In this document: positions 8,443 through 59,152 of the stretch, in pieces
Layout of the letters: each line of letters opens with the position of its first letter
Numbering within the stretch: position 1 is the first letter of the stretch
DNA from: an uncultured Actinomycetes bacterium
GTDB taxonomy: Bacteria > Actinomycetota > Acidimicrobiia > Acidimicrobiales > Microtrichaceae
Direction of reading: 5' to 3'
DNA length: 62,971 nt
Assembly: GCA_903868545.1 (NCBI GenBank)
Contig: CAIPVR010000293.1
Coordinates: 1-62,971, forward strand
Made by a program: the position numbers and the translations under genes
Notes under the pieces: model-generated
Database searches by the model: none
What the model saw: only the letters and a program-made list of their open reading frames with translations
What the model was told of the DNA's origin: nothing

Positions 8443-9321
8443 ATGACCCCCGACCGACGCGCCGACGCGCCGACCGCGCTCGGCATCGTCCGTGACCTCG
8501 ACCCGTACGTGCTGCTCGCGCTCACCTCGCTCGGCGACGAGGTGGAGGTGGCCGTGCGCCCACTCCCCCACGACCACCGCTGCGGTGCCGCCATGCTCCT
8601 CCGGCTCGACGCGCCGCCCGGCGCCTCCACGGTGGCGGCGTCGTTCGTCGGTGCCACGACGTCCGGCCGCGACCACCACGACGCCCGCGAGGGTGATCAG
8701 GAGGGCGACCGCAAGGGCGACCCGGACCACCGCATCGACGTGGCGGTCGACCGCTGGGGCACCATCACCTCCGCGGTCCGGCCACTCGGCGACGACGGCA
8801 CGACCGGCGACGTGGAACCGGGCTCCGGCGCGGCGCCGGAGGGCCTCGTCATCGACGCGCTCCACCGCACGCTCGGCCTGCCGTCCCCCGGCGGGCCACC
8901 GGCCCTGACCGAACTGGTCACGGCGATGTGGATGACGTGCGTGGGCACCCGCCTTCTCGGGCGGCCGGCGCCCACCTGGGCGAGCGTGGCGGAGCTGCAC
9001 CCCGCGGTGGACCCGCCCCCGCTCGGCCGGCCCGGCGGGAGGTCGGGGATCCCGCCGTCGCCCGAGGCGCTCGCCGCGGCCACCCGCCGCGTCGCCGCCG
9101 ACGGCACCACCTGGGAGCGCCTCCGGCTCGCCACGGTGGCCGGGCGGTTCCCGGCGCCGGACCTCACCCCCGAGGAGGCCGAATGGATGGACCACACGAT
9201 GTACGCCCGCTGGTACGTGCAGTCCTGTCCGACGGCCGCCTCCGTGGCCCGCCGCCTCCGGGCCGCCGGCGCCGGCGAGGCGGCGTCGAGGGTGGAGCAT
9301 GTCGCGCGGCTGCTCGCCTAG
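8443..9321 (+). CDS. unrecognised actinobacterial protein
   Basis: I do not recognise this 292-residue product. The ATG at 8443 follows CGGGAGACGCC, which contains a reasonable ribosome-binding site. It has no signal peptide or membrane helix. A charged, His/Asp-rich linker (about residues 75-100) separates an N-terminal part (DPYVLLALTSLGDEVEVAVR) from a C-terminal helical part with WMDHTMYARWYVQS. The 154 bases before it hold only GC-rich inverted repeats and no gene. The opposite strand also has a long open frame, but that frame lacks any sensible protein. It ends 38 bases before the ABC importer operon, so co-transcription is possible; no functional link is evident. Confidence 0.65.
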   Translation: MTPDRRADAPTALGIVRDLDPYVLLALTSLGDEVEVAVRPLPHDHRCGAAMLLRLDAPPGASTVAASFVGATTSGRDHHDAREGDQEGDRKGDPDHRIDVAVDRWGTITSAVRPLGDDGTTGDVEPGSGAAPEGLVIDALHRTLGLPSPGGPPALTELVTAMWMTCVGTRLLGRPAPTWASVAELHPAVDPPPLGRPGGRSGIPPSPEALAAATRRVAADGTTWERLRLATVAGRFPAPDLTPEEAEWMDHTMYARWYVQSCPTAASVARRLRAAGAGEAASRVEHVARLLA

Positions 9322-9359
9322 CCTCCCGGGCACAGGTCGTCTCACGAGTCCGGAGTGCC

Positions 9360-10442
9360 ATGAGCGGCGTCACGTTCCAGCAGGTCACGAAGCGCTTCGG
9401 GGACGTGGTCGCGGTCGACCAACTCACCCTCGACGTGCTCGACGGGGAGTTCATGGTGCTCCTCGGCCCGTCGGGCTGCGGCAAGTCCACGGCCCTGCGG
9501 ATGATCGCCGGGCTGGAGGAGGTGAGCGACGGCCTGCTGACGATCGGCGATCGGGTGGTCAACCACGTCCCGCCCCAGGACCGCGACATCGCCATGGTGT
9601 TCCAGAGCTACGCGCTCTACCCCCACATGACCGTGGCCCGGAACATCGAGTCGCCGCTGGTCGCCAACAAGCGGGCCCGCGTCGATGCCGACGAGCGGGA
9701 GCGGCGGGTCAAGGAGGCCGCTGCGACCCTGGGCCTCGAGGAGTACCTCGGCCGCAAGCCCGGCGAGCTCTCCGGCGGCCAGCGCCAGCGGGTGGCGCTG
9801 GCCCGAGCCATCGTTCGGCGTCCCGAGGTGTTCCTCATGGACGAGCCGCTGTCCAACCTCGACGCCAAGCTCCGCACCCAGACCCGCCTCGAGCTCGTCG
9901 AGCTGCACCGGCGTCTCGGCACCACCTTCGTGTACGTCACCCACGACCAGGTCGAGGCGATGACGATGGCCGACCGCATCGCCGTGATCGCCGACGGACG
10001 ACTCCAGCAGGTGGGCGCCCCCCAGGCGGTGTACGAGCGCCCGGCCAACCTGTTCGTGGCCGGCTTCATCGGCAGCCCGCCGATGAACACGCTGCGCGGG
10101 GTGGTCTCGCCCGGCACCCCGGCAGCGGTCACCACACCGTCCGGCACCGTCCGGGTGGCCGACCGGGGCACCGCCGCCGACGACACCGAGGTGGTCGCGG
10201 GGATCCGACCCGAGGACCTCTCCGTGGTCCCGCCCGGTGGCGAGGGTGTGGTGGGCAGGGTGGAGAACGTGGAGCTCCTCGGCCACGAGCGGCACCTGGT
10301 GGTGTCCTGCGACGGACACGTGCTCGTGGTGCGTCAGGACAACGGAGAACCCACCCCGGCGGTGGGCGAGACCGTCACGCTGGCCGCACGGCCCGAGCAC
10401 GTGCACCTCTTCGACCCGGCCGGTTCGGGCCGGCTGAACTGA
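9360..10442 (+). CDS. ABC transporter ATP-binding protein, UgpC/MsmK/MalK type
   Basis: This 360-residue cytosolic ATPase energises a carbohydrate-type importer. Walker A GPSGCGKST, the Q-loop in MVFQSYALYPHM, signature LSGGQRQRVALARAI, Walker B VFLMDEPLSNLDAK and the switch histidine in VTHDQVEAM are all intact. A C-terminal TOBE/OB extension of about 120 residues (GIRPEDL and ARPEHVHLFD) is typical of sugar and glycerol-3-phosphate importers. ATG at 9360. The permease gene starts seven bases after the stop, forming an operon with two permeases and a binding lipoprotein. Such ATPases are often shared among several importers. Confidence 0.93.
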   Translation: MSGVTFQQVTKRFGDVVAVDQLTLDVLDGEFMVLLGPSGCGKSTALRMIAGLEEVSDGLLTIGDRVVNHVPPQDRDIAMVFQSYALYPHMTVARNIESPLVANKRARVDADERERRVKEAAATLGLEEYLGRKPGELSGGQRQRVALARAIVRRPEVFLMDEPLSNLDAKLRTQTRLELVELHRRLGTTFVYVTHDQVEAMTMADRIAVIADGRLQQVGAPQAVYERPANLFVAGFIGSPPMNTLRGVVSPGTPAAVTTPSGTVRVADRGTAADDTEVVAGIRPEDLSVVPPGGEGVVGRVENVELLGHERHLVVSCDGHVLVVRQDNGEPTPAVGETVTLAARPEHVHLFDPAGSGRLN

Positions 10443-10449
10443 GGGACGG

Positions 10450-11397
10450 ATGACCGACCTGCCCGGCGCCGAGGCGGGCGCCGAGGACCTCGTGCGGGCG
10501 GCACCCACCGCGCCGCTCGGACCGCGCAGCGGTGACGGGCGCCGCCGCCTGCGCGACGCCCTCATGGCGTACCTGTTCCTGCTCCCGGCCCTCGTCACCT
10601 TCGCGGTGTTCGCCTACTACCCGCTGTACCGGTTGTTCTGGTACGCCACCCACCGCCAGCCCCGCTTCCGCAACCGGCCACCCACCTACGTGGGGTTCTC
10701 CCAGCTGTGGGACAGCCTGACCAGCCGGGACTTCGCCCAGGGCCTGCTCCACTCCGCCACCTTCATGCTCTACACGGTGCCGCTGGGCCTGGTCCTCGGC
10801 GTGGTGCTCGCGGTGGCCGCCCACCGCCGGCTCCGCGGGATCAAGGTCTTCCAGACGATCTTCTCCTCCACCGTCGCCACCTCGGTCGCCGTGGCCTCGG
10901 TGGTGTTCTTCACGCTGGTGAACCCCGAGGTCGGCTACTTCCGCAACGTCACCTGGCTCAGCCTCAACGACCCCACCTCCGCGATGTTCGCGGTGTCGCT
11001 CAGCTCCGTCTGGCAGAACCTCGGGCTCACGTTCATCGTGGTGCTCGCCGCGCTGCAGGCGGTGCCCGAGGAGCTCAACGAAGCGGCGCTCCTCGACGGG
11101 TTCGGCCCGGTGCGCCGCTTCTTCCGGGTGACGGTGCCGCTCATCTCGCCGGCGCTGTTGTTCCTCGCCATCGTCCTCGTCATCCACGCCCTGCAGGCGT
11201 ACGCCCAGATCGAGATCCTCACCGGCGGCGGCCCCGCCGGTTCCACCGAGACCCTGCTCTACAAGATCGCGGACCCGAAGAACATCCGGAGCCTCGACCT
11301 CAAGGCCGGCCTCTCCATCGGGCTCTTCGTGCTCACCGGGCTGGTGGCGTTCGTGCAGTACACGCTCCTGTCGAGGCGGGTGCACTATGGCGACTGA
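10450..11397 (+). CDS. ABC importer permease, UgpA/MalF-like
   Basis: This 315-residue inner-membrane permease has about six hydrophobic segments after a polar N-terminal tail. The first segment is LMAYLFLLPALVTFAVFAYY. The cytoplasmic EAA loop that contacts the ATPase reads EELNEAALLDGFGPVRRFF followed by VTVPLISP, a clear match to the binding-protein-dependent permease signature. It forms the heterodimeric channel with the next gene, whose ATG overlaps its 3' end by 11 bases. Confidence 0.92.
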   Translation: MTDLPGAEAGAEDLVRAAPTAPLGPRSGDGRRRLRDALMAYLFLLPALVTFAVFAYYPLYRLFWYATHRQPRFRNRPPTYVGFSQLWDSLTSRDFAQGLLHSATFMLYTVPLGLVLGVVLAVAAHRRLRGIKVFQTIFSSTVATSVAVASVVFFTLVNPEVGYFRNVTWLSLNDPTSAMFAVSLSSVWQNLGLTFIVVLAALQAVPEELNEAALLDGFGPVRRFFRVTVPLISPALLFLAIVLVIHALQAYAQIEILTGGGPAGSTETLLYKIADPKNIRSLDLKAGLSIGLFVLTGLVAFVQYTLLSRRVHYGD

Positions 11398-12223
11398 CCG
11401 ACGGAGCCCGGCCCTCGCCACCGCCGGGTGGTACGTGCTGCTGTCCGCGCTGTCACTGCTCGTGCTGTTCCCCGTCTACATGCTCGTGCTCCGGGCGTTG
11501 TCGAACCCGCTCGAGTACATCGCACAGGGCCAGCCGCTGTACCCGGTGCAGCCGGAGTGGGACGTGTTCGCCACGGCGTTCAGCGAGGCCGACCTCGGCC
11601 GGGCGCTCGGACTCTCGGCCCTGGTCACGTCGATCATCGTGGTGGTCCAGCTGCTCACCTCCGTGCTCGCCGCCTACGCGTTCGCGTTCCTGGAGTTCCC
11701 CCTCAAGCGGGTGATGTTCGTCATGGTGGTGGGCACCCTCCTGCTGCCGATCGAGGTGACGCTCATCGCCAACGTCGAGACCATGCGCACGCTGTCGTGG
11801 CTGAACTCCGTGCAGGGGCTCACCTTCCCCTTCCTCGCGACCGCCTTCGGCATCTTCCTCATCCGCCAGGGGTTCCTCGGCGTACCCGGGGAGCTGCGCG
11901 ACGCGGCCACGCTCGACGGCTACGGCCACCTCCGTTTCCTGTTCCGCGTGGCCATGCCCATGACGCGGCCCATCATCGGCAGCTTCGTGGTCATCTCCTT
12001 CCTCGGCGCCTGGAACCAGTACGTGTGGCCCCGCTTCGCCACGGACCGTCAGTCCTGGCAGACCGTGCAGGTGGCGCTGCGCAGCATCGGCTCCGACCGG
12101 GTGGACCGTCTCAACATCGGGTTCGCGGCGGCGATCGTGGCCGCGCTGCCCCTGCTGGCCCTCCTGATCTTCTTCCAGCGCCAGATGGTGCGGGGCCTCA
12201 CCGCCGGTGCGGTGAAGGGCTGA
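11387..12223 (+). CDS. ABC importer permease, UgpE/MalG-like
   Basis: The second membrane subunit of the importer has 278 residues and six predicted helices, beginning TAGWYVLLSALSLLVLFPVY. The EAA loop is GELRDAATLDGYGHLRFLF followed by VAMPMTRP. The extracytoplasmic segment between helices 1 and 2 carries NPLEYIAQGQPLYP, typical of the MalG/UgpE side. Overlap of its ATG with the upstream permease indicates coupled translation and 1:1 assembly. The 136 bases after it hold no gene but include the leader of the binding protein. Confidence 0.92.
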   Translation: MATDRRSPALATAGWYVLLSALSLLVLFPVYMLVLRALSNPLEYIAQGQPLYPVQPEWDVFATAFSEADLGRALGLSALVTSIIVVVQLLTSVLAAYAFAFLEFPLKRVMFVMVVGTLLLPIEVTLIANVETMRTLSWLNSVQGLTFPFLATAFGIFLIRQGFLGVPGELRDAATLDGYGHLRFLFRVAMPMTRPIIGSFVVISFLGAWNQYVWPRFATDRQSWQTVQVALRSIGSDRVDRLNIGFAAAIVAALPLLALLIFFQRQMVRGLTAGAVKG

Positions 12224-12359
12224 GTCACCGCCCGAGCCCACGCCCCCGGCACCGACGCCCCCACGTCACGGGGGTGGAACCACCGCGGGGCCTCCCGACA
12301 GGACAGACTGTGGCGGTCAGGGTCCCCGGCCACCGCCGTCGAAGCAGAAAGCGACCAGC

Positions 12360-13916
12360 ATGAGCGCCAACCCGGCCCCCCACCTCCAGCCCGCCCTCGC
12401 CGGCGACGCCCACGGGCGCCGTCGGCCCCGCACCCGCCTGCGGGCCCGCTGGTTGCTCGTCCCGCTCGCCGCCACGGCGCTGCTCGCCGCCGCGTGCGGC
12501 GGTGACTCCGGCGGCGGTTCCGGCTCCGGTTCCTCGGAGGGCGGCGGGCAGGTCGACGCCGCCGACTGCCCGGTGAAGGCCGTCCAGGACGCCACCGCAC
12601 CGATCGACGTGACGGTGTGGCACGCCTACGTGGGACTCCAGAAGTCCACGCTGGAGCAGCTCGCCACCTCGTTCAACGGCTCGCAGAACAAGGTGAAGGT
12701 GAGCGTCGAGGCCCAGGGCACGTACGAGGAACTCCTCAAGAAGTACGAGGACGCCCTCGGTGACCCGGGCACGCTGCCGGACATGATCCTCACCGAGGAC
12801 ACCACCACCCAGTTCATGATCGACTCCGGCGCCGTGGTGCCCGCCCAGTCCTGCATCGAGGCCGACGACACCGCGGCGAGCACCTACGACGACGTGCTGC
12901 CCTCGGTGAAGGCCGCCTACACCGTCGACGACGTGCTCTGGCCGGGCGCCTTCAGCGTGTCGAGCCCGATCTACTACGCGAACAACGCGATCCTCCGCCA
13001 GGCCGGCGTGGACACGTCCACCACCCCGAAGACCCTCGACGACGTCCGAGCGGTCGCCGAGAAGGTCAAGGCCGCGAACGTGCCCGGCGTGCAGGAGCCG
13101 CTGGTGATGAAGGTCGACGCCTGGTACCTCGAGCACTGGCTCACCGGCGTGAAGAAGCCGATCGTCAACGAGAACAACGGGCGGGCCGGTCTCGCCACGA
13201 CGTCGGAGTTCGACAACCCGACCACCCGCCAGATCATGGAGTGGTTCAAGAAGATGGTCGACGACAAGCTCCTGAAGCCGATCCCCAGCGCGAGCACCGG
13301 CATCGACGAGTACCTCGCGATCAACAACAAGACCTCCGCGATGCTCATCCAGACGTCCGCCGCCATCACCACCGTGGCGGCACTCCTCGACGGCTCCGTG
13401 AAGGCGGCCGACCTCGGCACCGTCGCCGGGGCCCCGTCGACGGTGAACACCGGGCTCGACATCGGGGTCGGGCCGGTCCCCGGCGTGAAGGAGGCAGGCA
13501 AGGGCCAGATCGGCGGGTCCGCCTGGTACCTGGTGACGACGAACCGGAAGAACGGCGTGGGCGCCGCCTGGCAGTTCATGAAGTACTTCCTGCAGACCCC
13601 GAACCAGGTGACCTGGACCGAGAAGGCCTCGTACCTCCCGGTGCTCGAGTCGGCCTCGTCGGATCCCAGCCTGCAGCAGTTCTTCACCGGCACCACCGCC
13701 GGGAAGTGGCTGAACGTGGCCTACGAGGGGCTCGGCAACCTCGACCCCGACTTCCCCGGCCCGGTGATCGGCCCCTACAAGGAGTTCCGCTCGGACGTGC
13801 GCGAGGCGCTCGACGGCGTGGCCCTCACCGGAACCCCGGTGAACACCGCGGTCAGCACCGCCGACCAGAAGTTCCAGTCAGCCCTCGACGCCTACGCCGA
13901 GGACGTCGGGGGCTGA
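12360..13916 (+). CDS. extracellular solute-binding lipoprotein, family 1 (sugar type)
   Basis: The 518-residue product is the ligand receptor of the importer. After an Arg-rich N-terminus comes a hydrophobic stretch and the lipobox LLAAAC (cysteine about residue 43), then a Gly/Ser linker. The mature part has the family-1 opening DVTVWHAYVG and long regions typical of UgpB/MalE-like binders, including EELLKKYEDALGD and GGSAWYLVTTN. Being last in the operon, after a 136-base spacer, it may be made in excess from its own promoter. The ligand cannot be deduced; sugars, glycerol 3-phosphate or glycerophosphodiesters are all plausible. Its stop codon lies inside a 13-base tandem repeat. Confidence 0.9.
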   Translation: MSANPAPHLQPALAGDAHGRRRPRTRLRARWLLVPLAATALLAAACGGDSGGGSGSGSSEGGGQVDAADCPVKAVQDATAPIDVTVWHAYVGLQKSTLEQLATSFNGSQNKVKVSVEAQGTYEELLKKYEDALGDPGTLPDMILTEDTTTQFMIDSGAVVPAQSCIEADDTAASTYDDVLPSVKAAYTVDDVLWPGAFSVSSPIYYANNAILRQAGVDTSTTPKTLDDVRAVAEKVKAANVPGVQEPLVMKVDAWYLEHWLTGVKKPIVNENNGRAGLATTSEFDNPTTRQIMEWFKKMVDDKLLKPIPSASTGIDEYLAINNKTSAMLIQTSAAITTVAALLDGSVKAADLGTVAGAPSTVNTGLDIGVGPVPGVKEAGKGQIGGSAWYLVTTNRKNGVGAAWQFMKYFLQTPNQVTWTEKASYLPVLESASSDPSLQQFFTGTTAGKWLNVAYEGLGNLDPDFPGPVIGPYKEFRSDVREALDGVALTGTPVNTAVSTADQKFQSALDAYAEDVGG

Positions 13917-13949: not shown

Positions 13950-15311
13950 TCAGCAGAGGCCGAGGCGGCGGCCCAGGTCGCTGCGGAAACGACCCTCGGG
14001 ATCGACCTTGTCGCGCACGTCGCGCCACTCGGCGAGCCGCGGGTACATCGCCGGCACCAGCTCCGGCCGCACCCGGCTGTCCTTGGCCAGGTAGATCGAG
14101 CCGCCGGCCGCCACCACCACCTCGTCGAGCTCGTCGAGCAGCCGGTCGAGGCCCGGCAGCACCGGGAGGTCGAGCGCGAGCGTCCAGCCCTTGCGCGGGA
14201 AGGACAGGTACCCCGGGTCCGCTGGGCCGAACCGTTTGAGGACGGCGAGGAAGCTGGACATGCCACTCTCCGACAGGCGTTCCACCGCGGTCCGCACAAC
14301 CTCGGAGGCCTCGTCGGGCACCACGAACTGCCACTGCAGGAAGCCCCGGGGGCCGTAGATACGGTTCCACTCGGCGATCATGTCGAGCGGGTGGAAGAAC
14401 GCCTCGATCGTCTGGAGCTCACCGCGTCGACGCACGGGCGCCTTGCGGTACCAGAGCTCGTTGAAGGCCCGTACGGTGAGGTGGTTGAGCAGGCCCGAGG
14501 GCACCACGTCGGGCGGCGACGGGAGCTGGCGGGGGTGGTAGGCGTACGGGTCCTCCGCGCCGGCACCGAGCGCCTCCTCGCGGGTGGCGAACCGGCCCCG
14601 CTGCAGGATCGAACGGCCCATGTGGCGGCCCCTGGCCACGAGGTCGATCCAGGCGACGGAGTACTCGTAGCGGTCGTCGCCCTCCACCATCATCGACATC
14701 ACGTCGTCGAGATCGGTCGCTCGGTCGGTGTCGACGCTGATCAGGCTCGAGCCGATCGGGGTCATCCGGATGGTGGCGTCGAGCACGAGGCCGGTGAGGC
14801 CCATGCCGCCCACCACGGCCCAGAACACCTCGGGGTCGCTGTCGGGGGACACCTCCCGGACCTCGCCGCGGCCGTCGACGAACCGCAACGAGACCACGTG
14901 CTCGCCGAAGGACCCCTTCACGTGGTGGTTCTTGCCGTGGATGTCGGCCGCGATCGCCCCGCCGACGGTCACCATCCGGGTGCCCGGGGTGACCGGCACG
15001 AACAATCCGTGCGGGACGAGCCATCGCATCAGGTCGTCGAGGCTGGTGCCGGCCCGGGCGCGCACCACCCCGGCGGCGAGGTCGATGTCGAGGAGGCCCG
15101 ACATCGACGGGCCCCACACCACCGTGCCGCCGGCGTTCTGCGCACAGTCGCCGTAGCCCCGGCCGAGGCCCCGACCCAGGACGCCGCGTCCACCGGCGGC
15201 GAGCACCGCGTCCACCGCGTCCTGCTCCGAACCCGGACGCAGGACCGTGCTGCGGGTGGGCGCGGTGCGGCCCCACCCGCAGAGGAGTTCGTCGGTCTCG
15301 ACAGGTCCCAT
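13950..15311 (-). CDS. dprE1: decaprenylphosphoryl-beta-D-ribose 2'-oxidase homologue
   Basis: This FAD enzyme (453 residues) oxidises polyprenyl-phosphoryl ribose to the 2-keto intermediate in decaprenylphosphoryl-arabinose synthesis. The FAD-binding half contains GRGLGRGYGD and TVGGAIAADIHGKNHHVKGS. The C-terminal half aligns well with my recollection of the mycobacterial enzyme through LSFPRKGWTLALDLP and YLAKDSR to the end. The mycobacterial drug-target cysteine (Cys387, in a GWNICVD context) corresponds here to Ala379; the conserved lysine 31 residues later is kept as Lys410. It starts seven bases after the ubiA stop, so it is one operon with ubiA. No dprE2 is nearby. Confidence 0.88.
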   Translation of the reverse strand: MGPVETDELLCGWGRTAPTRSTVLRPGSEQDAVDAVLAAGGRGVLGRGLGRGYGDCAQNAGGTVVWGPSMSGLLDIDLAAGVVRARAGTSLDDLMRWLVPHGLFVPVTPGTRMVTVGGAIAADIHGKNHHVKGSFGEHVVSLRFVDGRGEVREVSPDSDPEVFWAVVGGMGLTGLVLDATIRMTPIGSSLISVDTDRATDLDDVMSMMVEGDDRYEYSVAWIDLVARGRHMGRSILQRGRFATREEALGAGAEDPYAYHPRQLPSPPDVVPSGLLNHLTVRAFNELWYRKAPVRRRGELQTIEAFFHPLDMIAEWNRIYGPRGFLQWQFVVPDEASEVVRTAVERLSESGMSSFLAVLKRFGPADPGYLSFPRKGWTLALDLPVLPGLDRLLDELDEVVVAAGGSIYLAKDSRVRPELVPAMYPRLAEWRDVRDKVDPEGRFRSDLGRRLGLC

Positions 15312-15318
15312 GTGGCCC

Positions 15319-16239
15319 TCAGGTGTACACGGCGAGGAACAGGAAGACCACCAGCAGGACGCCCATGAGTTGCATGGTGCGGTCCTCCGAGAGCACCTCC
15401 TCGGGGGCTGATCCCTTCCCCTGGTCCACCAGCAGGGCGTAGCGGAGGATGGCGATCACGAAGGGGATGATCGACAGCTGCACCCACGGCGTGGCGAAAC
15501 GGTCGGTCTTGCCGCTCTCCACCGCCCACTGGCAGAAGCTCATCATCACCGCCGCGGCAGCGGCGGCCCGCACCAGTCCGAGGTACTCGACGCTGTACGC
15601 GCCGAGGGTGGGACGCAGCGCGGCTGCCTCCTCACCCAACTCCTTCTTCTCGGCGAAGCGCTTCGCCGCCGCGATGAACAGCGAGCCGAACAGCGACACG
15701 AGGAGGAACCACTCGGACACCTCCACACCGGCCGCGTAGGCACCCCCGAGGAGCCGCAGGATGAACCCCGACGACAGGATCACCAGGTCCATCACCGGGA
15801 TCTGCTTGAGCCACATCGAGTAGGCGGTGGTGAGCACCGCGTACCCGGCCACCACGCCGGCGAGCGTGATGTTGATCGTGAGCGCGAGGCCCACGCCGCC
15901 CACGAAGAGGACCACCGCCATCACCACGGCGAGCGGGACGGGCACGGCACCGCTCGCGATCGGCCGGTTGCGCTTCGTCGGATGGCGCCGGTCGGACTCC
16001 ACGTCGAGCACGTCGTTGAGGAGGTAGGTCGCCGAGGAGACGAGACAGAAGGCCACGAAACCGAGCAGGGTGAGGCGCAGGTAGTACCAGGTGGTGAGCA
16101 CCCCGGCCGCGGCCGGGGCCACGAACACCAGCACGTTCTTCGCCCACTGCTTGGGCCGGCACGCCTTCAGCATCGCCACGGGCAGCGGGGGTCGCGCCGG
16201 GCGGTCGCTGGCCGTTGCTGGTGTGCGCTGCTCGGTCAC
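15319..16239 (-). CDS. ubiA: decaprenyl-phosphate phosphoribosyltransferase (UbiA superfamily)
   Basis: This integral-membrane prenyltransferase transfers 5-phosphoribose from PRPP to a polyprenyl phosphate, the committed step toward decaprenylphosphoryl arabinose. The 306-residue product has eight to nine hydrophobic helices. The first Asp-rich motif, NDVLDVESDRRHPTKRNRP, is the hallmark of the Rv3806c group; RPKQWAKNV precedes helix 1. The GTG at 16237-16239 gives a short polar N-terminus; the longer upstream frame is not conserved in style. A possible -10, TAGACT (minus strand, near 16308), lies about 70 bases upstream. It is followed directly by dprE1, and the pairing supports both assignments. 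Confidence 0.9.
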   Translation of the reverse strand: MTEQRTPATASDRPARPPLPVAMLKACRPKQWAKNVLVFVAPAAAGVLTTWYYLRLTLLGFVAFCLVSSATYLLNDVLDVESDRRHPTKRNRPIASGAVPVPLAVVMAVVLFVGGVGLALTINITLAGVVAGYAVLTTAYSMWLKQIPVMDLVILSSGFILRLLGGAYAAGVEVSEWFLLVSLFGSLFIAAAKRFAEKKELGEEAAALRPTLGAYSVEYLGLVRAAAAAAVMMSFCQWAVESGKTDRFATPWVQLSIIPFVIAILRYALLVDQGKGSAPEEVLSEDRTMQLMGVLLVVFLFLAVYT

Positions 16240-16343: not shown

Positions 16344-17213
16344 TCAGCCCCCGGCGAGCGAGACCAGGAACGCCGTCGTCGCCGCGTCGGGGGGCGCCCC
16401 CAGACGCGAGTACCACTGGTCGCCGACCTGCCAGTGGGCGAAGCTCTCGGCGAAGTCCCCCGCCCCGGTGGCGAAGTCGGTCACGCCGCTCCCGTCCGGG
16501 AACCACGGCGTCGACGGATCCACACCCCGGGCGGCGAGCCAGGCGGCTCGGTCGTCATCGCCCAGGAGGCTCACGTCGACCGCGTGGCCGAGCTCGTGGG
16601 CCACCACGTGGGCGATGTCGGACACGGACTGGCTGCTGCGGACGTACACCTCGACCACCCGCTCGCGTGGGAACGTCGAACCGCGCAGGCCGCTCCGGCC
16701 GGGCAGGAACCGCACCTGCCACCCCGGTAGCCGCGCCTTCCAGTCGTAGCGGATCCGACCGAGCGCCCGCGCCGCCCGGTCGCGCAGTTCCCCGGACCCG
16801 AGACGCTCCACCGCCCGGTCCGACGTGCCGGGTGCCGCGGCGGTGGTCGGTGGTGCGGCCCGGGGTGCGGCAGGACGGGGCGAGCCGTCGGGCGTGGCCA
16901 CCGCGGAGGGCACCTGCGGCTGGGGCAGCGTGGGCACCGCCCCGTCCGGCAGGGTCACCTCGGCCATGACCTGCGGTTCCGGCGCGCCAGGATCGGCCGC
17001 GGCGGACGGGTCGGCAACGAGGCCGTCGGGGCTGTCGTCCGGGCCGCCGACCGCCGCCCAGTCCGGGGCGCCGCCGGCCGACCCCGACACCTCCGCGGTG
17101 CGCGACGGACCGCAGCCGGCGCAGCACGCCGCGACCACCGTCACCGCCGCGAGGCGGCGCAGCAACCGGCCACGACCGGCCGAGGTCGGGTCCCGGTGGT
17201 GCTTCCCCGCCAT
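16344..17213 (-). CDS. putative secreted lipoprotein with zinc-protease HELGH motif
   Basis: The 289-residue product starts with a twin-Arg-flanked hydrophobic segment ending in a cysteine cluster (AACCAGCG), a probable lipoprotein signal. A Pro/Ala/Thr-rich, disordered linker of about 100 residues follows. The C-terminal domain carries IAHVVAHELGHAVDVS, a gluzincin-type HExxH motif, with a downstream acidic stretch (GAGDFAESFAHW) that may supply a third ligand. This looks like a small cell-surface peptidase or a peptidase-like fold. It sits 21 bases after sua5 and upstream of ubiA-dprE1, so it could be co-transcribed with envelope genes. The substrate is unknown. Confidence 0.7.
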   Translation of the reverse strand: MAGKHHRDPTSAGRGRLLRRLAAVTVVAACCAGCGPSRTAEVSGSAGGAPDWAAVGGPDDSPDGLVADPSAAADPGAPEPQVMAEVTLPDGAVPTLPQPQVPSAVATPDGSPRPAAPRAAPPTTAAAPGTSDRAVERLGSGELRDRAARALGRIRYDWKARLPGWQVRFLPGRSGLRGSTFPRERVVEVYVRSSQSVSDIAHVVAHELGHAVDVSLLGDDDRAAWLAARGVDPSTPWFPDGSGVTDFATGAGDFAESFAHWQVGDQWYSRLGAPPDAATTAFLVSLAGG

Positions 17214-18278: not shown

Positions 18279-18323
18279 GCCCCCCGGACGCTACCGGGCC
18301 GCTCCGTGTGCCACCATCGACCC

Positions 18324-20426
18324 GTGAGTGCCCCGCACCACCGGGCCGACGTGCAGGGGCTCCGCGCCGTGGCGGTCCTCCTCGTCGTGGCGTTCCACGT
18401 GGGTGGCAGCCCCGTGGCCCAGACCCGTTCGGGCAGCACCTGGGCGCTCGCCCGCAGCGGGTTCGTGGGCGTGGACGTGTTCTTCGTCATCTCCGGGTTC
18501 GTGATCACCGCCCTCCTCCTGCGGGGCGTCGACCGCGGCGAGGGCATTCCCTTCCGCGACTTCTACGCCCGGAGGGCCCGGCGGATCATGCCCGCGCTCG
18601 CCCTCATGACGGTGCCGGTGCTCGTCGCGTGCGTCGTGGTGCTCGACCCGTTCGGGGCGCAGCAGTTCGCCGCCAGGACGGGGCTCGCGGCCAACGCGTT
18701 CGTGGCCAACGTGTACCTGTACCGCCACACCGGCTACTTCGACGCCAGCGCGGCCTCCAACCCGTTCCTCCACACCTGGTCGCTGTCGGTGGAGGAACAG
18801 ACCTACCTGGTCCTTCCCGCGGCGCTGGCGGTGACCCTGTGGTGGGACCGACGGCGACGGCGGTCCCACCACGCCCCCGGCGCCGACGGGTCGCAGCGGA
18901 CCCCGGTCCGGGCGACGGCCGCGACCGTGGCGGTGACGGCGGCGGTGGCGGTGGCGTCGTTCCTGCTCGCGATGGCGCTGCACGGCGGCCGGCAGCCGTT
19001 CGGGGTGGAGGCCCCGGAGCGGCTCGCGTTCCTGGCCGCACCCACCCGCTGGTGGGAGTTCGCGGCGGGCGCGCTCGTGGCGCTGGCCCTCCGCGCCGGG
19101 CGACGGCCGGGCCGGACGGCCTCCGCCGTGCTGGGCCTCGGCGGTCTGGGCGTGGTGGTGGCGTCCGGGATGCTCATCGACCCGGGTGGGACCTGGCCCT
19201 CGGCCTGGGCACTGGCTCCGGTGCTGGGCACGGCCGCCGTGATCCTCGCCGGCCCCGGGGGTCCGACGGCGCGGGTGCTGGCCGTGCGGCCGCTCACGTG
19301 GCTCGGGGACCGGTCCTACGCCTGGTACCTGTGGCACTGGCCGGCGATCGTCCTCGCGGTGGCCCTCTGGCCCACCACCCCCTGGGTGCCGGCGGTGGCG
19401 GCCGTGACATCGCTGCTCCCCGCGTGGGCGTCCTACCGCTGGGTCGAGCAGCCGATCCGGGTGGCGCCGGGCATCGTCGGCCGACGAGCGGTGCTGCTCG
19501 CGGGCGGGTGCGTGTCGGTGGTGGTGGTCACGGCCGGGGCCGTGCTCCTCGGTTCCCGCGGCGGGTGGGGGCTGGAGGAGGCCGACGGCTGGTACGACAT
19601 GCCGAACGGGCGGAACGTGGGGTGCCACCAGTTCAACCGGGACGCCTCCGGTGACTGGCCCGCCGGGGTGTGCACCACCCCGGCGCCGGGCGACCGGGAC
19701 CCCGGCGGTCGCGACACCGTGCTGGTCCTCGGCGACCTCCAGGCCGACGGTGTCGCCCCCGCCACGGTGCGGGCGGCGGGCTCGCTCGGGTTCCGGACCG
19801 CCCAGTGGAGCCGATCGGGGTGCCCGTTCCTCACCCGGGCCCCGGTCCACGCGGACCGTTGCGCCGAATGGCAGCAGCAGGCGTGGGACCTCGTGGAGCG
19901 ACTCCGGCCGGCGGCGGTGGTGCTGTCGGCTGACGAGGCGGCGTACACGACGGACGCCCCGCCGGAGGAGGAGTTGGCCGGGCCCGACGGCGGCCACCCC
20001 GGTTCGACCAGCGCCGCGGTGCGGTCGTGGGCCGCGTCGCTCGACGCCACGCTCGAGCGCCTCCGGCGCCTCGGCGTGGGCGCGGTGGTGGTGGGTGGCG
20101 CCCCCGACCTGGGGCCGTCGTTCCCCCGCGACCGCCAGTCACTCCTGCGGCCCGACCCCCCGCTGCCGGAGGTGGACCTCGAGGCGGCGAGGCGGCGCCG
20201 GGCCGGGGTCTGGGCCGCCCAGCAGGCGGTGGTGGGGCGGGCCGATGCCGCCGCGCTCGTGGACCCGCTCCCGCTCCTGTGCACGCCGCGCTGCGACGCC
20301 GTGGTTGACGGCCGCTGGCGGTTCCACGAACGGAACCAACTCACCAACGTGGGCAGCGACGTGCTCACCGCCGAGATCCGCCGATCCCTCGAGCAGGTGA
20401 CGACGCCGGGCGCGACCGGGGGCTGA
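18324..20426 (+). CDS. OafA-type membrane acyltransferase with degenerate SGNH domain
   Basis: The 700-residue protein has an N-terminal acyltransferase-3 domain of about ten helices that O-acylates cell-surface glycans. The conserved QGLRAVAVLLVVAFHVGG carries the catalytic His, and GFVGVDVFFVISGFVIT follows. The extracytoplasmic C-terminal domain aligns with SGNH hydrolases, but its block I reads VLVLGDLQADG where active enzymes have GDSH. The late block reads FHERNQLTNVGS where DxxHL is expected. Both the nucleophile Ser and the His are therefore missing, so the domain is probably a binding or structural module. The GTG at 18324 is preceded by a CACCAT -10-like box. Confidence 0.85.
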   Translation: MSAPHHRADVQGLRAVAVLLVVAFHVGGSPVAQTRSGSTWALARSGFVGVDVFFVISGFVITALLLRGVDRGEGIPFRDFYARRARRIMPALALMTVPVLVACVVVLDPFGAQQFAARTGLAANAFVANVYLYRHTGYFDASAASNPFLHTWSLSVEEQTYLVLPAALAVTLWWDRRRRRSHHAPGADGSQRTPVRATAATVAVTAAVAVASFLLAMALHGGRQPFGVEAPERLAFLAAPTRWWEFAAGALVALALRAGRRPGRTASAVLGLGGLGVVVASGMLIDPGGTWPSAWALAPVLGTAAVILAGPGGPTARVLAVRPLTWLGDRSYAWYLWHWPAIVLAVALWPTTPWVPAVAAVTSLLPAWASYRWVEQPIRVAPGIVGRRAVLLAGGCVSVVVVTAGAVLLGSRGGWGLEEADGWYDMPNGRNVGCHQFNRDASGDWPAGVCTTPAPGDRDPGGRDTVLVLGDLQADGVAPATVRAAGSLGFRTAQWSRSGCPFLTRAPVHADRCAEWQQQAWDLVERLRPAAVVLSADEAAYTTDAPPEEELAGPDGGHPGSTSAAVRSWAASLDATLERLRRLGVGAVVVGGAPDLGPSFPRDRQSLLRPDPPLPEVDLEAARRRRAGVWAAQQAVVGRADAAALVDPLPLLCTPRCDAVVDGRWRFHERNQLTNVGSDVLTAEIRRSLEQVTTPGATGG

Positions 20427-25332: not shown

Positions 25333-26145
25333 GTGAGCCTCCCCACCCCCTCCCCCACCAGCACCGCCCTCGTCACCGGCGCCTCGTCCGGGATCGGCGT
25401 GGAGCTCGCACGGGGCCTGGTCCGGCGAGGCCACGGCGTCACTCTCCTGGCCCGGCGGGCCGACCGGCTCGAGGACCTCGCCGGGGAGCTCCGCCGCAGC
25501 GGGGTGCGGGTGGAGGTGCTCGCCCGCGACCTGGCCGACCCCGCCGGACGCGGCGGGATCGCGGAGGAGTTGGCCGAGCGCGGCCTCGAGGTGTCGGTCC
25601 TCGTGAACAACGCCGGGCTGTCCACCCTCGGCCCGGTGCACCGCGGCGACACCGAGGCCGAACTGCGGATGGTGGAGGTGGACGTGATGGCGGTGGTGGA
25701 GCTGTGCAGCCGGCTCGTGCCACCGATGGTCGAGCGGGGCGCCGGTGCGGTGCTCAACGTGGCCTCCACCGCGTCGTTCCAGCCGCTGCCCGGCCAGGCC
25801 GGCTACGGCGCGTCGAAGGCGTTCGTCCGCTCCTACACCGAGGCGCTGGCCGCCGAGCTCCGGGGGACCGGGGTGCACGCCACCGTCCTGTGCCCCGGGC
25901 CCGTGGAGACCGAGTTCGGCGACGTGGCGGGCTTCGACGCCGACGCCACCAAGGAGACCCTCCCGTCCTTCATGTGGGAGACCCCGCAAGCGGTGGCCGA
26001 CGTGGGGCTGCACGCCCTTGCCGCCGGGCGGACCGTGGCCATCCCGGGCCCGGCCAACCGGGCGCTGGCCATGGTCTCCTACCTCACGCCGAAGCGCCTG
26101 CTGCTGCCACTGCTCGCCCGCCAGCACCCGGGCCTGCGGGACTGA
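25333..26145 (+). CDS. short-chain dehydrogenase/reductase
   Basis: This 270-residue classical SDR has an N-terminal NAD(P) loop TGASSGIGVELA, NNAGLSTLG, a catalytic Ser in VASTASF and the YGASKAF (YxxxK) motif. An Arg-rich sequence after the glycine loop (LARRADRLEDL) favours NADP(H). GTG start 10 bases after the upstream stop implies an operon with the GH5 gene. The substrate is unknown; the C-terminal VSYLTPKRLLLPLLARQ resembles SDRs that act near membranes or on lipids. Confidence 0.87.
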   Translation: MSLPTPSPTSTALVTGASSGIGVELARGLVRRGHGVTLLARRADRLEDLAGELRRSGVRVEVLARDLADPAGRGGIAEELAERGLEVSVLVNNAGLSTLGPVHRGDTEAELRMVEVDVMAVVELCSRLVPPMVERGAGAVLNVASTASFQPLPGQAGYGASKAFVRSYTEALAAELRGTGVHATVLCPGPVETEFGDVAGFDADATKETLPSFMWETPQAVADVGLHALAAGRTVAIPGPANRALAMVSYLTPKRLLLPLLARQHPGLRD

Positions 26146-57997: not shown

Positions 57998-59152
57998 ATG
58001 GGCCGCACCACGTGGTGGCACGACCAGTTGGAGCTGGGCCGGGGCGGGCCGTCCCGGCTCGCGTCCATGGAGGGGCTCCGGGGCCTCGCGGTCCTGCTCG
58101 TGTTCTTCGTCCACTACGCCGACCGCATCCGGCCGTGGATCACCGACGCCTCCGTCACGGGTCCGCTGGCGGTCCGTATCGGCGACGCCGGCAACATCGG
58201 CGTCGACCTCTTCTTCGTGCTCTCCGGGTTCCTGATCTACGGGAACCTGATGGACCGGGAGCAGGCCTACCGACCGTTCATGAGACGGCGCCTCCGGCGC
58301 CTCTACCCCACGTTCCTCGTGGTGCTCGGCGCCTACGTGCTGCTCGCACTCGCCATGCCCTCGGCCAGCCCCGAGTTCCCGCGCCAGCCGGTCCAGATGG
58401 CCGTCTACCTCGGCTTCCAGGCCCTGTTCCTCCCGGGCATCCTCCCGGTCGAGGCGTTCATCACGGTGGCGTGGTCCCTCAGCTACGAGGTGTTCTTCTA
58501 CCTGACCGTCCCCGTGTTCATCTCCAGGCTGCACCTCCGGGAGCGCACGTCGCCCGAACGGGTGCGGCTGCTGCGGCGGTTCGCCCTCGGCACGCTCCTC
58601 CTCGGCGGCTTCATCTCGGGAACCCACCCGCGGCTCTGCATGTTCTTCGGCGGGATGCTGGTGTGGGAGTGGCTCCGGTTCCGCTGGCCCTCCGAACAGG
58701 ACGACCCCGACCGGATCCGTCGGCTCGACCGCCTCTCGAGCGCCGCGCTGCCCACCGCCCTGGTGCTGGCCCCGATCCTGGCCGGCACCCTCCTCCAGGG
58801 CCTCCCCCGGGTGGCCGCCATGCTGGTGCTCTGGCCGGTGCTGTGCGCAGGGTGTTTCGCCGTCGACGGACGCATGCGGCAGTGGTTCTCGTGGACGCCG
58901 CTGCGCTACCTCGGCAACATCAGCTACTCGTACTACCTGATCCACTCGCTGGTGCTGCAGGGCTTCTTCCTCGGCCTCGAGCAGGTGTGGGCACCCGACG
59001 GCGAGGCGGGCTGGGCGTTCTGGGTGCTGATGGTCCCGGTGTTCGCCCTCACCGTGGCGGGCGCGCTCGTGCTGTTCCTGCTGGTGGAGAAGCCGTTCTC
59101 GCTCGACCGCAGGAGCCTGAACCCCCGCACGCTGGGCCGCCGGCCGGCGTGA
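57998..59152 (+). CDS. acyltransferase-3 family membrane protein (OafA/YrhL-like)
   Basis: The 384-residue protein has about ten hydrophobic helices and no SGNH extension. It starts SMEGLRGLAVLLVFFVHYADR, carrying the conserved GLRG and catalytic His, then NIGVDLFFVLSGFLIYGNL, RRRLRRLYPTF and AWSLSYEVFFYL. It should transfer an acyl group across the membrane to a surface polysaccharide or lipid. TACCTT ends nine bases before the ATG. The donor and acceptor are unknown. It is the second such acyltransferase in this window. Confidence 0.88.
   Translation: MGRTTWWHDQLELGRGGPSRLASMEGLRGLAVLLVFFVHYADRIRPWITDASVTGPLAVRIGDAGNIGVDLFFVLSGFLIYGNLMDREQAYRPFMRRRLRRLYPTFLVVLGAYVLLALAMPSASPEFPRQPVQMAVYLGFQALFLPGILPVEAFITVAWSLSYEVFFYLTVPVFISRLHLRERTSPERVRLLRRFALGTLLLGGFISGTHPRLCMFFGGMLVWEWLRFRWPSEQDDPDRIRRLDRLSSAALPTALVLAPILAGTLLQGLPRVAAMLVLWPVLCAGCFAVDGRMRQWFSWTPLRYLGNISYSYYLIHSLVLQGFFLGLEQVWAPDGEAGWAFWVLMVPVFALTVAGALVLFLLVEKPFSLDRRSLNPRTLGRRPA

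Follow-up and report, generated by a model that had tools for sequence, protein, structure and literature searches.

DprE1 serves as a target for drugs in the clinic, and those that bind it covalently depend on one cysteine. The Acidimicrobiia are wastewater, marine and soil bacteria whose envelopes are little known. In the benzothiazinone literature, this residue, Cys387, is said to show high conservation among orthologues from various Actinobacteria (PMC3206020), natural resistance is attributed to alanine in M. avium and to serine in M. aurum (PMC3206020, PMC3937683), and Nocardia brasiliensis is credited with a second DprE1 having serine at the site (PMC4608729). Three-component extracytoplasmic pentofuranose systems, which decorate Gram-negative O-antigen, were described in 2024; according to that report, DprE1/E2 homologues occur wherever arabinofuranose side chains and genome are both known, and its authors name further candidates in Gram-positive bacteria whose glycan is not known (PMC11127046).

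We analysed a stretch of 62,971 nucleotides (contig CAIPVR010000293.1, hereafter the window) from an uncultured member of the Microtrichaceae, whose genome comprises 3.69 Mb in 335 contigs and is 97% complete. Like the systems of PMC11127046, this genome has a UbiA-type phosphoribosyltransferase, DprE1/E2 for arabinofuranose and a GT-C enzyme with a carbohydrate-binding module; unlike in those systems, which modify O-antigen, its genes are dispersed. The window pair is predicted to follow the same chemistry as the mycobacterial pathway and the three-component pentofuranose systems. The pair thus appears to join the known decaprenylphosphoryl-arabinose (DPA) / three-component arabinofuranose kind; the contrast with mycobacteria lies in the smaller set of enzymes, with donor synthesis and AftD in the window's genome and no match to Emb, AftA or GlfT2.

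The ubiA-dprE1 pair and its surroundings

The pair and the two codons of interest are located as follows.

13950-15311, minus strand: dprE1, decaprenylphosphoryl-beta-D-ribose 2'-oxidase homologue, 453 aa (NF053785, phmmer, AlphaFold2 superposition)
15319-16239, minus strand: ubiA, decaprenyl-phosphate phosphoribosyltransferase (DPPR synthase) homologue (NF008978, PF01040)
14177-14175, minus strand: GCG codon of Ala379, equivalent to M. tuberculosis Cys387 (sequence alignments; bases read)
14084-14082, minus strand: AAG codon of Lys410, equivalent to M. tuberculosis Lys418 (sequence alignments; bases read)

The first gene of the pair, ubiA, lies just upstream of dprE1 and scored 359.3 bits against NF008978 (cut-off 207), with PF01040 at E 5.6e-30. 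Its start at 16239 is a choice, as the frame stays open to a GTG at 16506; the family match covers 15322-16230. The dprE1 ORF reached 602.5 bits against the NCBIfam DprE1 model NF053785 (cut-off 500) in a near full-length match (residues 9-452 against profile positions 4-449 of 449), and E-values of about 1e-128 to 1e-130 against solved mycobacterial DprE1 (phmmer). An AlphaFold2 model built with 27 relatives in the alignment had a mean pLDDT of 89.1. When it was superposed on crystal structures, the top 31 ranks all went to DprE1 entries, of which the best gave Z 50.6 and an rmsd of 1.7 Å over 413 residues (range 413-418), and Foldseek agreed. Residue-level equivalences were taken from sequence alignment and not from the superposition. 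They place H125, K127 and K410 of the window protein on His132, Lys134 and Lys418, and the equivalents of Gln334/336 and Lys367 are also conserved; these residues have active-site roles in DprE1. Compared with M. tuberculosis/M. smegmatis DprE1 (Rv3790; PDB 4fdn, 4aut, 4f4q), the window protein is about 44-47% identical and has the same fold over its full length (Z 50), with the catalytic-site residues and Lys418 kept; it differs by alanine for Cys387, by threonine for Asn385 and by a dprE2 that does not adjoin. A pseudogene or assembly artefact was ruled out by the open dprE1 frame and by a local gene order that recurs in relatives. Judged by these matches, 13950-15311 encodes a DprE1-type oxidase with an intact frame, and the preliminary description, which had predicted a functional oxidase with alanine at the covalent benzothiazinone site, was right about the family, the kept active-site residues and the alanine.

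Among the best 80 of 582 named loci, the nearest DprE1 sequences come from MAGs titled uncultured actinobacterium (78%). A record titled Microthrixaceae bacterium FR_25 falls within the window's clade of eight (support 100), further close records bear the names Acidimicrobiia or Acidimicrobiales, and DprE1 is present in 27 of the 30 sampled genomes of the window's order. The pair is flanked by the following genes.

10450-13916, plus strand: sugar ABC transporter, two BPD_transp_1 permeases and an SBP_bac_8 binding protein, converging on dprE1
16344-17213, minus strand: lipoprotein-like ORF with a HVVAHELGHAVD zinc-peptidase-like motif, upstream of ubiA

The local order is Sua5, the peptidase-like ORF (where found), ubiA, dprE1 and then the convergent transporter. 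Sua5-ubiA-dprE1-transporter recurs in loci L031, L066, L121 and L124 and partly in L122, L123 and L152, several of these loci being short. The ORF at 16344-17213 gave no Pfam or NCBIfam match, and its homologues were seen at the same place only in L066, L121, L123 and L124. In each of the seven relatives examined from the window's clade, the SBP_bac_8 gene adjoins dprE1. The titles of the MAG records L123, L125 (Bifidobacterium breve), L145 (Chloroflexi) and L183 (Acidobacteria) are at odds with actinobacterial DprE1 loci and may reflect mislabelled bins, contamination or transfer.

Alanine at the benzothiazinone site

The alignment with M. tuberculosis DprE1 (phmmer, E 5e-128) was ungapped from GW(N/T) to KDSR and set A379 on Cys387 and K410 on Lys418, at a spacing of 31 residues in each protein. 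A misaligned residue as the source of Ala379 was ruled out, there being no gap between the two landmarks. The preliminary description, which had put the YLAKDSR lysine 31 residues past the Cys387 position and read alanine there, was borne out by this alignment and by the GCG and AAG codons; no cysteine occupies the equivalent position.

The distribution of the alanine was surveyed in two sets. Among 396 genomes of the phylum, 63 contained DprE1 and yielded 65 sequences, G123 and G353 contributing two each; all copies in these two genomes (L045/L062 and L064/L065) lie in ubiA-dprE1-dprE2 cassettes. The raw tally of the phylum alignment (52 Ala, 11 Cys and 8 Thr of 71) had counted five loci and the window twice, and the 65 sequences hold 47 Ala, 10 Cys and 8 Thr in the Cys387 column. 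Family f37 (14 of the 63 DprE1-positive genomes) was taken as mycobacteria, being alone among them with Emb, and these 14 Mycobacterium-like genomes have 9 Cys and 5 Ala; the 51 sequences left when they are set aside have 42 Ala, 8 Thr and 1 Cys. The second set, the best 80 of 582 named relatives' loci and so a sample biased towards the window's side, gave 69 Ala, 9 Thr, 1 Cys and 1 Ser. Together, the 145 sequences comprise 116 Ala, 17 Thr, 11 Cys and 1 Ser, and because alanine is found in 116 of them, Cys387 has no family-defining value. The equivalents of His132, Lys134 and Lys418 are kept in 145, 143 and 144 of the 145, respectively. The sole departure at Lys418 is a glutamine in L055 (G107, 8995-10329), an enzyme whose activity is possibly changed or lost.

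Fitch parsimony on a DprE1 tree (FastTree, computed with the Cys387 column left out and midpoint-rooted without an outgroup) gave 14 changes, with alanine at the root, cysteine at the f37 node and a reversion to alanine in a clade of five. The likely direction of change is thus from alanine at the root to a cysteine gained near the mycobacteria, and alanine is probably the older form at the drug-binding position. M. avium-type DprE1, with its natural Ala387, has the same residue as the window, but on this tree the mycobacterial Ala387 would be a reversal from cysteine within a single clade (5 of the 14), whereas the alanine of the window's lineage would be an inherited state. By analogy with M. 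avium, we infer that the Ala379 enzyme is active but escapes covalent capture by nitro-benzothiazinones. The preliminary description had treated the alanine as a special feature, which was overstated: outside mycobacteria most sequences (42 of 51) have it, and to judge from the alignments Ala379 is the usual, ordinary form of DprE1 there.

In the sequences surveyed the DprE1 cysteine is a minority state and, given the likely direction of change, a derived one, so that most non-mycolic actinobacteria should escape covalent DprE1 inhibitors because of their target site. Conservation of Cys387 is limited to the mycolic-acid side in the present sample, as aligned, and the published wording on its high conservation in various Actinobacteria should be narrowed to 'mycolic-acid bacteria'; no statement restricting the conservation of Cys387 in this way was found in the open-licence literature.

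DprE2 and candidate arabinosyltransferases

The preliminary description had called for a search of the genome for dprE2 and for emb-type and aft arabinosyltransferase genes. DprE2 was found at G000:C141:2240-2986 (292 bits, cut-off 250), and in the window's family it matched in 30 of 33 genomes at E<=1e-35, in 27 of them above the cut-off. The window's own SDR at 25333-26145 was ruled out as DprE2: its best NCBIfam model, mycolate_SDR, stayed below cut-off, and NF053786 is absent from its 25 listed families. Many genomes of the window's family (f1) have a second DprE2-like SDR, for example G294:C32:173872-174597, and the window's genome has one only. In relatives, ubiA-dprE1-dprE2 is one cassette: less than 3 kb separates dprE2 from dprE1 at 59 of the 64 loci of the phylum sample and at 71 of the 80 named ones (best 80 of 582). 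No member of the window's clade of eight has the two genes this close within the sequence available, some of its loci being only 3.5-6 kb long. Next to dprE2 in the window's genome are genes that, named by eye, encode a lipoamide dehydrogenase and a sugar-epimerase-like protein; gene calls here and in the aftD regions come from a simple GC-codon caller, with some starts over-extended.

The arabinogalactan enzymes were sought with profiles that each matched their C. glutamicum control and, where included, Mycobacterium-like genomes. Emb (PF04602) gave no match in the window's genome at E<=0.01, with all eight candidates scored, and among the 396 genomes its N-domain matched 18, of which the DprE1-positive ones are exactly the 14 of f37. 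AftA (PF12250) was not found in the window's genome and matched in 5 of 51 chosen genomes, all Mycobacterium-like (f37). Nor was GlfT2 (PF17994), which matched in six of the 51, five from f37 and, weakly, G145. An Emb-like N-domain (104 bits, E 3.7e-30) was also seen in L245 (G340:C7:115737-116966), from a class member without a match to DprE1, UbiA or DprE2.

The search for an arabinosyltransferase succeeded in part: Emb and AftA were not found, and an AftD-family candidate was. AftD (PF11847) occurs in 58 of the 396 genomes, the window's genome included, where it is present in a single copy.

G000:C199:16511-20926: AftD-family GT-C protein, 1471 aa

Its domains above cut-off are PF11847 (316.5 bits), PF00754 (F5/8C, 43.7 bits) and PF24607 (CBM_AftD, 33.5 bits). 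It aligns over residues 21-1389 to the solved M. abscessus AftD (PDB 6w98/6wbx) with E 4e-43, and is thus a full-length homologue with the same GT-C, F5/8C and CBM_AftD arrangement. The DTK motif is unchanged across all 14 homologues aligned (sixteen regions were tried, two without a gene call). The mycobacterial setting differs, as no Emb, AftA or GlfT2 was found in the window's genome and as AftD proteins are also encoded in genomes lacking every DPA gene. The aftD gene lies in a cluster of glycosyltransferase genes, and its contig further holds homologues of a PMT-like GT-C, a GT4 and a DPM1-like GT2, together with an acyltransferase-SGNH gene. A GT4 homologue was seen in 14 of the 15 AftD regions from this class and in 6 of 8 from outside it; the outside identities are 30-37%, and GT4 is a common fold. 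The genome also encodes a GT87 protein (142.8 bits), of what we take to be the AftC/PimE superfamily, whose match does not discriminate between AftC and PimE. The GT87 family mixes arabinosyl- and mannosyltransferases, and this protein could be an alternative transferase; the AftD-family protein is the most likely candidate for the arabinose transferase of the window's genome.

AftD was found in 42 of 63 DprE1-positive and 16 of 333 DprE1-negative genomes (Fisher p 9e-28, a value inflated by uncorrected kinship). Without the 14 Mycobacterium-like genomes the counts are 28 of 49 and 16 of 333 (p 3e-18), and within the window's class 22 of 28 and 1 of 10 (p 2.5e-4), kinship being uncorrected in both. 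The dprE1 and aftD genes lie less than 25 kb apart in 7 of the 42 genomes with both (G156, 4.9 kb; G353, 6.9; G031, 10.5; G188, 10.8; G252, 11.8; G091, 14.0; G113, 23.5). Six of the seven belong to family f2, presumably Ilumatobacter-like, where eight genomes hold both genes. The linked regions, chosen for examination of gene order by their closeness, run ubiA, dprE1, dprE2, GT-C, GT4, DPM1-like GT2 and AftD, sometimes with two AftD. For the window's own family, where each of dprE1, dprE2 and aftD has a contig to itself among the three, the evidence of linkage is borrowed from relatives.

The two distributions do not coincide. DprE1, UbiA and DprE2 were each found in none of 16 of the 58 AftD-positive genomes on renewed search, so AftD-family enzymes need not use arabinose; one of these, G263 (window's order, 98% complete), has an AftD 44% identical to that of the window's genome with the same GT4 adjoining. 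Conversely, 21 of the 63 DprE1-positive genomes gave no AftD, and another transferase must serve there. False negatives as the source of the mismatch were rejected after protein re-searches of 25 DprE1-negative genomes, which gave only two partial DprE1 matches of 28-32%, and of the 21 AftD-negative genomes, which gave none in a search without a positive control.

A proposed pathway and its alternatives

In the pathway that we propose, UbiA would join PRPP-derived phosphoribose to polyprenyl phosphate and a phosphatase would then strip the 5'-phosphate from the lipid-linked ribose. The window's DprE1 would oxidise the ribose 2'-OH using FAD, and the unlinked DprE2 would reduce the keto intermediate to arabinose. 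The arabinofuranose, still lipid-linked, would be flipped, and a GT-C enzyme, putatively the AftD-family protein, would transfer the arabinose to an envelope glycan. Substrates, reaction direction, transferase and polymer are all deduced from sequence. The pathway is supported by DprE1 and UbiA scoring above curated cut-offs, by the conserved active-site residues, by DprE2 and AftD in the same genome, and by the co-occurrence of DprE1 with AftD and their linkage in relatives; it is probably present and feeding such a glycan, and we hold with moderate confidence that these genes form a three-component system for D-arabinofuranosylation in Acidimicrobiia, whose product is an arabinosylated envelope glycan made without Emb. 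A literature search that took in a review of the phylum found no cell-wall sugar analysis or arabinose report for Acidimicrobiia, Ilumatobacter or Microthrix, and no publication on Acidimicrobiia with donor genes and AftD but without Emb, AftA and GlfT2.

The identity of the transferase is where the main alternative arises. DPA could be made and its arabinose transferred by another GT-C, either the GT87 protein or the PMT-like enzyme beside aftD, with AftD using some other lipid-linked sugar supplied by the DPM1-like GT2. The 16 AftD-positive genomes devoid of DPA genes and the 21 DprE1-positive genomes devoid of AftD speak for it, as do the GT87 score and the PMT-like GT-C and DPM1-like GT2 next to aftD, whose homologues stand in the dprE1-aftD clusters of relatives; the strong co-occurrence of DprE1 and AftD, their tight linkage in f2 and the AftD-specific CBM of the window genome's protein make us consider it rather unlikely. 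The cassette might instead make ribofuranose or a soluble or lipid product in place of an arabinosylated polymer, or be a vestige. Such an outcome would suit a dprE2 that is unlinked throughout the window's clade, but is improbable given the retention of DprE2 across nearly all of the family, the conserved active-site residues and the prevalence of DprE1 in the order. Least credible is a mycobacterial-type arabinogalactan, to which we give hardly any weight: DPA genes and AftD are indeed shared with mycobacteria, but Emb, AftA and GlfT2 were not found in the window's genome by searches whose controls matched. Because these three were not found, an arabinose polymer, if made, would differ from mycobacterial-type arabinogalactan, which agrees with the earlier suggestion of another arabinose-containing polymer in this lineage.

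A wider evolutionary version of the proposed arabinofuranosylation pathway can be put forward tentatively, as possible rather than probable. Polyprenyl-P-arabinofuranose and AftD would form an old actinobacterial system without Emb, AftA and GlfT2, kept by the Acidimicrobiia for an undescribed envelope glycan. Mycobacterial arabinogalactan would have arisen later through the addition of Emb, AftA and galactan synthesis, and the DprE1 cysteine would be a late gain on the mycobacterial side. If the pathway reading is true, Acidimicrobiia arabinosylate a glycan with far fewer enzymes than mycobacteria use, and would offer a simpler setting for the study of AftD, whose role is hard to isolate alongside the Emb enzymes.

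Two other genes of the window encode membrane acyltransferases.

18306-20426, plus strand: Acyl_transf_3 membrane acyltransferase fused to an SGNH domain
57998-59152, plus strand: second Acyl_transf_3 membrane acyltransferase

Both proteins are of the same kind as the acyltransferase beside aftD in the same genome.
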